From Planctomycetota bacterium (GTDB lineage Bacteria > Planctomycetota > UBA8742 > UBA2392), in NCBI GenBank assembly GCA_020848275.1, contig JADLAK010000018.1:26685-90684 (forward strand): DNA of 64,000 nucleotides, given 5' to 3'. The notes under the pieces are model-generated. The model saw only the letters and a program-made list of their open reading frames with translations. It made no database searches and was not told the DNA's origin. Of this stretch, positions 30,437 through 61,190 are shown piece after piece. Positions within the stretch are counted from its first letter, which is position 1; every line of letters begins with the position of its first letter. The translations under genes and the position numbers were made by a program.

Positions 30437-33400
30437 ATGAGTACCGTCAATCACATCGAAGTGCGTGATCGTTTTTTGAAGTTCTTTGACCGCAAATTCC
30501 GCGAATGGGCCAAAGCCAAGGGCGAGGACCCGGCCAAGCTGCCGCAGATGATCCTGCCGGCATATTCGCTCGTGCCCGATGACCCGTCGACGCTCTTTAC
30601 CACGTCCGGGATGCATCAATTTAAGGATGACTTCACCGGTAACTTAAAACATGGAACCAAGCGCGCGACGACGTGCCAGAAGTGCATGCGCACGCCCGAC
30701 CTCGAGAACGTCGGCAAGACCGCGCGCCATCACACGATGTTCGAGATGCTCGGCTTTTTCTCGTTCGGTGATTACTTCAAGAAGGAAGCGATCGCCTGGA
30801 TCTGGGAGTTCTACACCGTCGAGATGAAGCTGAGCAAAGACAAGCTGCGCATCAGCGTCTATCAGGACGACAACGAAGCCTACGAACTCTGGGCCAAGCT
30901 CGAACCGTCGCTCAAGCAGAAGAACTGGATCTATCGCTTTGGCGAGAACGACAATTTCTGGCCCGCAGGTTCGCCCTCGCAAGGCCCCAACGGCGTGTGC
31001 GGCCCGTGCAGCGAAATTTTCTATGACCTCGGCGCGAGTTATGACAAACCCACGCTCAATGGAGCGGACGACCCGAGCAACAACGGCGACCGTTTCATGG
31101 AAATCGGCAACATCGTTTTTACGCAGTTTGAACGCAGCGGCCCGATTCCCGGCAAAGGCACGCTGACGCCGCTTCCTGCGAAAAACATCGACTTCGGTGG
31201 GGGTCTCGAACGCCTGATTGTCGCGCTCGAGAACGTACCGACGACGCTCGACACCAGCCTGTTCACGCCCGTACGCGAAAAAATGCGCGCGCTGCTCGGC
31301 AAACCCGCGCCGCAAGTCGGCGGCGACGAAAACGTGCGCGAAAAGCGCATCGCCGATCACATTCGCGCTTCAACGTTCCTGATTGCCGACGGCGTGGTAC
31401 CCAGCAACGAAAAGCAGGGCTACGTGCTGCGCCGCGTGCTGCGCCGCGCCTATCGCGACGGCAATAAACTTGGTTTTAAAGGCCCGTTCTTGCACAAGCT
31501 GGCGCGGCCGATTATCGACACGTTCGGCGATGTGCCGGATTACCGCAACCTGAAGGAAAATCCTGCGGCCATCGAAGGGGCGATCAAGCAGGAAGAAGAA
31601 GCCTTCGACAAAGTGCTCGCCCGCGGCCTCGAAAAGGTCAACGCGCTAATCGCCGATCTCAAGAAGCGCGGCCAGAAGGTTCTCGACGGCGCGCTCGCGT
31701 TTGATCTGCACTCGACCTACGGCCTGCCCGTGGACGTCACACGTGACGAACTCACTGAAGCGGGTTTCACGCTAGACGAACCCGGCTTTGAAGCCGCGTT
31801 CGACAAGTTCCGCGAAGACAGCCGCAAAGCCGGCGGATTCAGCGGCGAGGTTTTCGACAAGGGCTGGTTCGCGCAGCTCAAGGCCAAGGCCAGGCCGACG
31901 GAATTCCTGGGGTACCAGACTTCGCGCGCCGCGGGCAACGTCGTCGGCATTTCGCACAACGAAAATCTGGTCGATTACATCCGCGAAGGCAGCACGGCGA
32001 CCGTGATCCTCGACAAGACGCCGTTCTACGGCGAATCGGGCGGCCAGGTCGGCGACAGCGGTGTTTTGCAACTGCCCGGCGGCAAATTCATCGTTGCCGA
32101 TACCAAGAAGAAGGAAGATTACATCCTTCACGTCGGCAAACTCGAAAGCGGCAAGCTGTCCACGAGCGACACAGTCGAGGCGATTGTCGACGATGCCCGC
32201 CGCACGCAGATTCGCGCCAATCACTCGGCGACGCACCTCATGCATGCGGCGTTACGCAAAGTCCTGGGCGAACACGTCGTCCAGCGCGGCAGCGAAGTTG
32301 CGTCCGACCGCCTGCGCTTCGATTTCACGCACACCAAACCGGTGAGCTGGGACGAGCGCCGCGAAATCGAGCGCATCGTCAACGAGCAGATCGTCCACAA
32401 CGCCGACGTCTGCACCGACATCATGTCGCCCGACAAAGCCCGCGAAGCCGGCGCCATGGCGCTATTCGGCGAAAAGTACGGCGATCGCGTCCGCGTTTTG
32501 AGCATGGGCAGCATGTCGGACGTCCCGTCCGACGGTAGCGCGGGCTTCCAGCCCGCAAAGGGCGCATTGGACATCCGCGACCGCGGTTACCTGCCCCATT
32601 GGGAGAAGCTCGGGGCAACATATTTCGTCACCTTTCGTCTCGATGATTCACTTCCCGAAAGCGTCAGGAAGGCTCTTGAGTTCGAGCGCAAGGACATTGT
32701 GCTGACCGCCGAGCAAGTTGGCAGGCCCCTGTCGGAATCTGAATTGGATCGACTCGACCATCTGTATTCGGAAAAGATGGAGGATGTCCTCAATGCCGGC
32801 CATGGGGCGTGCCACTTACGCCGCGCCGATTGCGCGAAAATCGTTTCTGACGCATTCAAACACTTCGACAAAAAACGGTACGACCTCTTCGCGTGGGTGG
32901 TTATGCCCAATCACGTCCACGTAGTGTTTTGCCCCTATGACGGTGAAAAGCTTGCCGACATCATGCACTCGTGGAAATCATTTACTGCAAAGGAGTGCAA
33001 CAAAGTCCTGGGTCGTGAAGGAATCTTCTGGCAACCGGAGTATTTCGACCGGCTGATTCGCAACAAGGCAGAGTTCGCCAGGAAAGTCACGTACGTCGAA
33101 CAGAACCCTGTTGTGGCCAAATTAGGGAATTGGGATTGGGTCTGGACGTTCGAAATGCAAGCGGCCGGGACGGCCGCGCTACCTGCGGGCCAGAGGCCCG
33201 CGAATTCCGAGACGCCTGCAACACCTGCGGGCCTGAGGCCCACATCACGTGCGGCCGAGACGGCCACATCACAACGTCCGTTCTCGCGCGAACTTTGCGG
33301 CGGCACGCACGTCCGCCGCACGGGCGACATCGGTTTGTTCAAGATTGTGAGTGAAGGCTCATCGGCGGCCGGCGTGCGGCGTATCGAAGCCGTGACCGGC

Positions 33401-33931
33401 ATGCGCGCGGTGAATGCTATGCAGGCGGAATCGGACGTGATCGCGCAACTCGGCGCGTTGCTGAAAACGCCGCCGGACAAAGTCCTGGCGCGGGTTGAGG
33501 CCATGCAGAAGGAAAACCGCGAGCTGAAATCCGCGGGCCCGAAATCGGCCGGGATCGACGCCGGGGCGCTGGAAAAACTCCGCACCGGGGCGCAAACGGT
33601 TGGCGGCGCGAAGGTTATCGTTGCAGAACTTCCGGTGGGGGATGCCGCCGAGTTATTGACAATCATGGAGTCTCTGCGCCAAGATGCTCCGCCCCACGCG
33701 GTTCTGTTGGGCGGTAAGGCGGAAGACAAGGCCATGTTGGTCGTGGGTTTTTCGCCTGAACTGGTCAAACGCGGCCTTCACGCGGGCAAGCTTATCGGCG
33801 AAATCGCCAAGCTTGTCGGCGGCGGCGGCGGCGGCAAGCCGGAGCATGCACAGGCCGGCGGCAAGAACCCGCAGGGGCTGCCCGAGGCGTTGAAGCTGGG
33901 GCAGGAACGAATTTTGAAGGCATTGTCGTAG
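30437..33931 (+). CDS. alaS: Alanyl-tRNA synthetase with an in-frame REP-associated transposase insertion
   Basis: Class II AlaRS core (TTSGMHQF, FEMLGFFSFGDYFK, GPCSEIFYD); editing HSATHLMHAAL before and FSRELCGGTHVRRTGDIGLFKI after the insertion; 1164 aa, far longer than usual. Confidence 0.95.
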   Translation: MSTVNHIEVRDRFLKFFDRKFREWAKAKGEDPAKLPQMILPAYSLVPDDPSTLFTTSGMHQFKDDFTGNLKHGTKRATTCQKCMRTPDLENVGKTARHHTMFEMLGFFSFGDYFKKEAIAWIWEFYTVEMKLSKDKLRISVYQDDNEAYELWAKLEPSLKQKNWIYRFGENDNFWPAGSPSQGPNGVCGPCSEIFYDLGASYDKPTLNGADDPSNNGDRFMEIGNIVFTQFERSGPIPGKGTLTPLPAKNIDFGGGLERLIVALENVPTTLDTSLFTPVREKMRALLGKPAPQVGGDENVREKRIADHIRASTFLIADGVVPSNEKQGYVLRRVLRRAYRDGNKLGFKGPFLHKLARPIIDTFGDVPDYRNLKENPAAIEGAIKQEEEAFDKVLARGLEKVNALIADLKKRGQKVLDGALAFDLHSTYGLPVDVTRDELTEAGFTLDEPGFEAAFDKFREDSRKAGGFSGEVFDKGWFAQLKAKARPTEFLGYQTSRAAGNVVGISHNENLVDYIREGSTATVILDKTPFYGESGGQVGDSGVLQLPGGKFIVADTKKKEDYILHVGKLESGKLSTSDTVEAIVDDARRTQIRANHSATHLMHAALRKVLGEHVVQRGSEVASDRLRFDFTHTKPVSWDERREIERIVNEQIVHNADVCTDIMSPDKAREAGAMALFGEKYGDRVRVLSMGSMSDVPSDGSAGFQPAKGALDIRDRGYLPHWEKLGATYFVTFRLDDSLPESVRKALEFERKDIVLTAEQVGRPLSESELDRLDHLYSEKMEDVLNAGHGACHLRRADCAKIVSDAFKHFDKKRYDLFAWVVMPNHVHVVFCPYDGEKLADIMHSWKSFTAKECNKVLGREGIFWQPEYFDRLIRNKAEFARKVTYVEQNPVVAKLGNWDWVWTFEMQAAGTAALPAGQRPANSETPATPAGLRPTSRAAETATSQRPFSRELCGGTHVRRTGDIGLFKIVSEGSSAAGVRRIEAVTGMRAVNAMQAESDVIAQLGALLKTPPDKVLARVEAMQKENRELKSAGPKSAGIDAGALEKLRTGAQTVGGAKVIVAELPVGDAAELLTIMESLRQDAPPHAVLLGGKAEDKAMLVVGFSPELVKRGLHAGKLIGEIAKLVGGGGGGKPEHAQAGGKNPQGLPEALKLGQERILKALS
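32540..32556. repeat. REP-like hairpin GCGGGCTTCCAGCCCGC
   Basis: Perfect inverted repeat; related hairpin at 42591-42609. Confidence 0.7.
33161..33267. repeat. Cluster of four REP-like hairpins in alaS after the transposase domain
   Basis: GCGGCCGGGACGGCCGC, GCGGGCCAGAGGCCCGC, GCGGGCCTGAGGCCCAC, GTGCGGCCGAGACGGCCAC. Confidence 0.75.
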
Positions 33932-61079: not shown

Positions 61080-61190
61080 TGTGGCTGCGATTTCCTGATC
61101 GCAGCTTTGCCCTTGTTTGCCCAGTCAAGTGACACGCGTGGCGAGCCCTATGGCTCGCCACTGCTGCGGTTGGAAACCGCAGCCACGTTC
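61080..61190. repeat. REP-like tandem hairpins GTGGCTGCGATTTCC..ATCGCAG / CTGCGGTTGGAAACCGCAGCCAC
   Basis: Three short palindromes downstream of efp; related words at 12306-12335, 12903-12960, 28375-28402, 17660-17717. Confidence 0.7.

Follow-up and report, generated by a model that had tools for sequence, protein, structure and literature searches.

REP-associated transposases nested in frame within essential bacterial proteins: an alaS insert and its recurrence across phyla

Introduction

How can the gene of an essential enzyme carry a whole transposase within its own reading frame, and in what form is such a guest kept? This question is raised by the alanyl-tRNA synthetase gene (alaS) located in the window, that is, the 64,000-nucleotide stretch of planctomycete DNA analyzed here. 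An earlier note had described a REP-associated transposase (RAYT) inserted at 32515–33280 and had left its history between several options, namely a domesticated domain, an exapted REP transposase fused to a tRNA synthetase, or a very recent insertion selected for frame.

Results

The alaS frame (30437–33931) contains no internal stops, and the earlier claim that it stays open for 1164 amino acids is thus borne out. The main features of the locus are as follows.

30437..33931, + strand: alaS with the nested element, a single open frame of 1164 codons plus stop
30437..32509, + strand: N-terminal part of AlaRS, comprising the catalytic domain and the beginning of the editing domain and ending in VRVLSMG
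32222..32236, + strand: HSATH, which supplies HxxxH to the zinc motif of the editing site
32516..32532, + strand: REP-like palindrome TCGGAC-GTCCC-GTCCGA, 5' end of the element
32540..32556, + strand: REP-like palindrome GCGGGC-TTCCA-GCCCGC, read in frame as AGFQPA
32576..33145, + strand: RAYT (HUH/Y1) core domain
32903..32920, + strand: MPNHVH, the HUH motif
33092..33094, + strand: codon of Y886, aligned to the tyrosine of VDYIYINPV in 4ER8 and taken as catalytic
33161..33177, + strand: REP-like palindrome GCGGCC-GGGAC-GGCCGC, 3' end, with its loop inverted relative to the 5' one
33185..33201, + strand: REP-like palindrome GCGGGC-CAGAG-GCCCGC
33281..33931, + strand: C-terminal part of AlaRS (rest of the editing domain and C-Ala/DHHA1)
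33296..33310, + strand: CGGTH, within the C-terminal part

The product has the catalytic, editing and C-Ala domains of an alanyl-tRNA synthetase, together with the HSATH/CGGTH zinc motif; HxxxH, here HSATH, is part of the zinc site used in editing by AlaRS. The AlaRS sequence breaks after VRVLSMG (32509) and restarts at FSRELCGGTHV (33281), so that HSATH and CGGTH lie on opposite sides of the insert, as had been noted. Pfam domains were found in the order tRNA-synt_2c (residues 8–587), Y1_Tnp (810–889), tRNA_SAD (948–984) and DHHA1 (1058–1157), which agrees with the claimed in-frame position within the editing domain, and NCBIfam gave both an alaS match and a match to REP_Tyr_transpos NF047646. 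A second, uninterrupted alaS, which would have counted against the earlier reading, was looked for in the window's genome (88% complete, multi-contig) and in 15 relatives of its family, and none was found; a single alaS was detected in each of the 16 genomes.

The insert is a complete REP-RAYT-REP unit at approximately 32513–33280 that interrupts the editing domain at a hairpin turn; its transposase ORF has no stop codon and is in frame with alaS. Its identification as a RAYT is confirmed by the Pfam Y1_Tnp domain, by the sequence match of its core to the solved TnpA-REP structure 4ER8 (E 6.3e-8) and by the intact HUH motif followed by Y886, which we take to be the catalytic tyrosine from what is known of TnpA-REP. 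This motif and the downstream tyrosine were invariant across 13 aligned rows. The window RAYT scores 73.9 bits against the NF047646 cut-off of 80, and a copy nested in ispG scores 80.9. The earlier boundaries gave the right location, except that the element starts at ~32513, with its first palindrome at 32516; the earlier description of the insert also stands, but it had left out at least four REP-like palindromes. Two further imperfect ones follow that at 33185..33201 and reach ~33275. Next to the RAYT, perfect palindromes reach approximately 15 times their background density, and their loop sequences are inverted between the two ends.

The reading phase of the upstream REP was compared between nested and solo loci described below. 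Among 42 nested loci, phase 0 was found in 30, phase 2 in 12 and phase 1 in none, the corresponding counts by host being 9, 5 and 0, since the loci include related, non-independent ones; solo loci gave six, five and three for phases 0, 2 and 1. The absence of phase 1 from the nested upstream REPs fits their being translated. An internal translation start for the RAYT found no clear support, a start codon with a Shine-Dalgarno-like site being present in just 4 of 56 nested copies.

An AlphaFold model of the 1164-residue protein (mean pLDDT 85, pTM 0.53, at which the placement of domains relative to one another is unreliable) gave an answer to the earlier query of whether the AlaRS halves could still fold around the insert. 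In this model, the AlaRS domains are predicted to be normally folded and well formed, and the RAYT forms a separate confident fold. Low-confidence, apparently disordered linkers are placed at residues 693–702 and 908–945, where the REP-encoded residues sit, and host strands 685–690 and 950–953 flank the turn on each side. A Foldseek search with the whole model matched AlaRS structures, AlaX editing enzymes, C-Ala and 4ER8, the last at E 1.8e-6, albeit with an rmsd that was high across the joined alignment.

When 60 relatives were searched, G004, G007 and G014 proved to have a RAYT at this turn of alaS, which is occupied in three genera of the family. Together with the window's genome, 4 of the 16 family genomes have a RAYT at this turn and the other 12 have none; in relatives lacking a RAYT, the loops at this position are short. 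A single very recent insertion is not supported by these findings, as the same turn is filled in three genera by different RAYTs. A FabZ-like paralog holds a RAYT at one position in ten genomes, although its being an essential gene is not supported, because an uninterrupted FabA/FabZ-type gene is also present in all ten. Further in-frame hosts in the relatives, named by eye from sequence, were PurH, a monooxygenase/oxidoreductase fusion and DNA methylases.

In the tree, 14 alaS and fabZ inserts and one solo copy form one clade (98/97), within which the two hosts are intermixed. At the same time, the flanks of each insert are mostly 90–99% identical between G007 and G014, whereas the inserts themselves are ~45–75% identical over most of their length. 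Because like flanks thus enclose unlike inserts, the occupant of a site changes faster than the site itself; this, together with the intermixing of alaS and fabZ inserts, is the reason why vertical inheritance of one ancestral alaS insert is not favored as the sole explanation, although the AU test alone does not exclude it (single origin not rejected, p 0.23). In the alaS gene of G010 (L028), a REP-sized remnant without a RAYT is located at the same turn and could be either a landing site or a scar.

The arrangement is not limited to this family. Scanning of named genomes with a RAYT profile yielded 80 loci from many phyla. About half of these (40, by an open frame of at least 160 residues before the RAYT and at least 80 after it) were nested, with domains or flanking sequence of the host recognized to either side, a share that is inflated by the profile having been built mainly from nested copies. 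Solo copies stop soon past the domain, and nested copies read on. RAYTs of the same subfamily were thus found in frame in ~15 kinds of host gene, identified by Pfam and flank comparison, which speaks against a unique domestication. The hosts included the following.

valS: 9 loci at one site, one of them cut by a contig end
leuS: 2 loci
IleRS/ValRS-type enzyme: one locus
ispG: 5 loci
dinG: 2 loci
carB, metH and tsaC: present among the hosts
alpha-mannosidase: one locus
B12/radical-SAM proteins: 2 loci
DNA methylases: many loci

The valS insert is located between YPLxx and the TVATTRPETMLGD motif, which corresponds to a point between residues 207 and 209 of Thermus ValRS and borders the editing domain. 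The leuS insert lies within the editing domain, between residues 364 and 377 of Thermus LeuRS. Carriage of the RAYT by phages or plasmids was considered and set aside, as phages gave no match and plasmids only distant ones. Two side observations concern these hosts. The valS gene of L184 has a second REP-like insert (HGQDGRDTNHGQDARAT), in frame and without a RAYT, further downstream of its RAYT. In Verrucomicrobiaceae L247 and L248, a solo RAYT directly follows tsaC, and this tsaC matches, on both sides of the nested RAYT, the tsaC host of L207.

The catalytic H, H and Y were present in all 57 nested copies examined; conservation of HUH is partly built into the search criterion, and the tyrosine was no criterion. 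For the valS pair L194/L188, the RAYT shows a dN of 0.077 against a dS of 0.72, while dS in the host flanks is 0.55–0.77. These values indicate joint inheritance of RAYT and host under purifying selection. Two other nested pairs gave dN/dS near 0.06 and 0.11, so that purifying selection (dN/dS ~0.1) is seen over the comparable nested pairs, which are valS and methylase pairs rather than the alaS insert itself, alaS inserts at the same site being too divergent for dN/dS. The valS host and RAYT trees are in partial agreement, with a supported conflict over L192, and 14 changes between nested and solo states are needed on a 101-row tree. Conservation of the catalytic residues, together with the low dN/dS of such pairs, favors retention as a transposase over exaptation of a dead domain.

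Discussion

We consider it likely that the alaS insert represents an HUH transposase element, apparently active, which is translated as part of essential proteins, is not spliced out and settles time and again in the same loops. Ribosomes would most likely run straight through alaS and the insert, giving one protein of 1164 residues in which the AlaRS fold is unchanged and disordered REP-encoded linkers attach the RAYT to the hairpin turn of the editing domain. With its HUH motif and tyrosine kept, the transposase probably still works, nicking and joining single-stranded REP hairpins. Translation within an essential gene would keep the element expressed and shielded from deletion or frameshift, and the repeated occupation of given loops in given genes by different RAYT lineages may come about through new transposition or through recombination. 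That the polypeptide remains uncleaved, that both of its parts are active and that the element is currently mobile are points that we infer together.

A somewhat different fate, recruitment of the RAYT fold for the benefit of the host, e.g., as a nucleic-acid-binding module tuning the editing reaction, would fit the location of the inserts within the editing domain of AlaRS, ValRS and LeuRS or at its border, and also the long persistence in valS under purifying selection. Such exaptation, which was among the earlier options, is nonetheless unlikely: the hosts are very diverse and share no common function, occupancy is patchy even within one family (4 of 16 alaS genes), near relatives have different RAYTs at the same site, REPs are retained at both ends, and the conserved catalytic residues and low dN/dS favor a kept transposase.

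It is still less probable that the insert is removed by RNA splicing, ribosome bypassing or protein splicing to leave a mature AlaRS without the RAYT. Removal would explain the tolerance of essential enzymes to the insert, and hairpins do flank the RAYT; but neither RNA removal nor bypassing needs an open frame, and the whole element, REPs included, is open, with a biased reading phase. As for protein splicing, no intein (Hint) domain was found in the Pfam and NCBIfam scans, and the residues at the junctions vary between copies. Moreover, removal would be unnecessary according to the model, because the ends of the insert are predicted to be loose linkers in turns.

An artefact of assembly or binning, or decay of this alaS beside an intact copy at another locus, is hardly credible, even though the genome is multi-contig and incomplete and the alaS genes of G007 and G014 contain frameshifts: these are mostly one-base differences in C or G runs, of the kind that sequencing errors give, a second alaS was found in none of the 16 genomes, nested copies also occur in records without a MAG label (e.g., Pontiella sulfatireligans F21(T) and Dolichospermum LEGE 00240), and chance or assembly error, including the chimera considered earlier, is very unlikely because three further, independent assemblies have a RAYT at the same turn.

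By its tested features, then, the insert is a RAYT element, and its novelty lies in its location and way of life. It resembles the RAYT/TnpA-REP proteins of REPtrons in its HUH and tyrosine motifs, its match to 4ER8 and the inverted REP palindromes on both sides, and its pattern of NHVH, WQ and YxxxNP is similar to that of subclass 2.4, its probable class (Quentin et al. 2018, PMC6006769). Known RAYTs have been treated as separate genes, whereas the present ORF runs, stop-less and in frame, within the gene of a host enzyme. REPs read in frame within genes, those of tRNA synthetases among them, are already on record (Di Nocera et al. 2013, PMC3733652), and such intragenic REPs, as well as the Rickettsia palindromic elements, are similarly palindromic repeats translated inside genes; they are, however, short and devoid of a transposase, unlike the entire transposase found here inside a host protein. 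REPs within subclass 2.4 RAYT genes, with the frame kept, were also reported, and unexpectedly long proteins were removed as fusions or annotation errors in the same survey (Quentin et al. 2018, PMC6006769). Because at least one earlier survey proceeded in this way, nested RAYTs may have been overlooked.

The closest parallel in lifestyle is provided by inteins with homing endonucleases, which also place a DNA-processing domain in frame in essential proteins, are patchily distributed and recur at fixed sites. The present insert differs in that no splicing domain was found in it, in its location in loops, where it apparently stays, and in its enzyme, an HUH single-strand transposase. A broader proposal, to which we would give somewhat less than even chances, is that stop-less REP-RAYT elements form a dispersed class whose normal niche is in-frame nesting in essential genes, the fused transposase itself driving the re-colonization of loops in a homing-like manner while it remains a permanent domain without splicing.

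In-frame nesting of RAYTs is real and recurrent. As a lifestyle, it appears to be undescribed: a search of the literature that took in few of the subscription journals brought up no paper on in-frame RAYTs inside host genes, which is weak evidence of absence. The findings suggest that a bacterial transposase may persist for long as a translated domain in enzymes such as AlaRS, ValRS and LeuRS, a way of living generally associated with inteins. Nested RAYTs also offer natural tests of the tolerance of proteins to a large inserted domain and of the way in which RAYTs are maintained.

Two minor observations were made alongside. The alaS genes of several relatives (e.g., L028, L029, L131 and L008) have a hypervariable in-frame insert of up to ~100 residues in the catalytic part, between NIDFGGG and REKRIADH (residues ~250–305 of the window protein), with no evident similarity between genomes; a REP origin of this variable insert, near AlaRS residue 290, was mostly rejected, as it is not REP-like in most relatives. 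Elsewhere in the window, palindromes with the TGGAA/TTCCA loop found in the REPs of the insert are located at 61165 and 63915.
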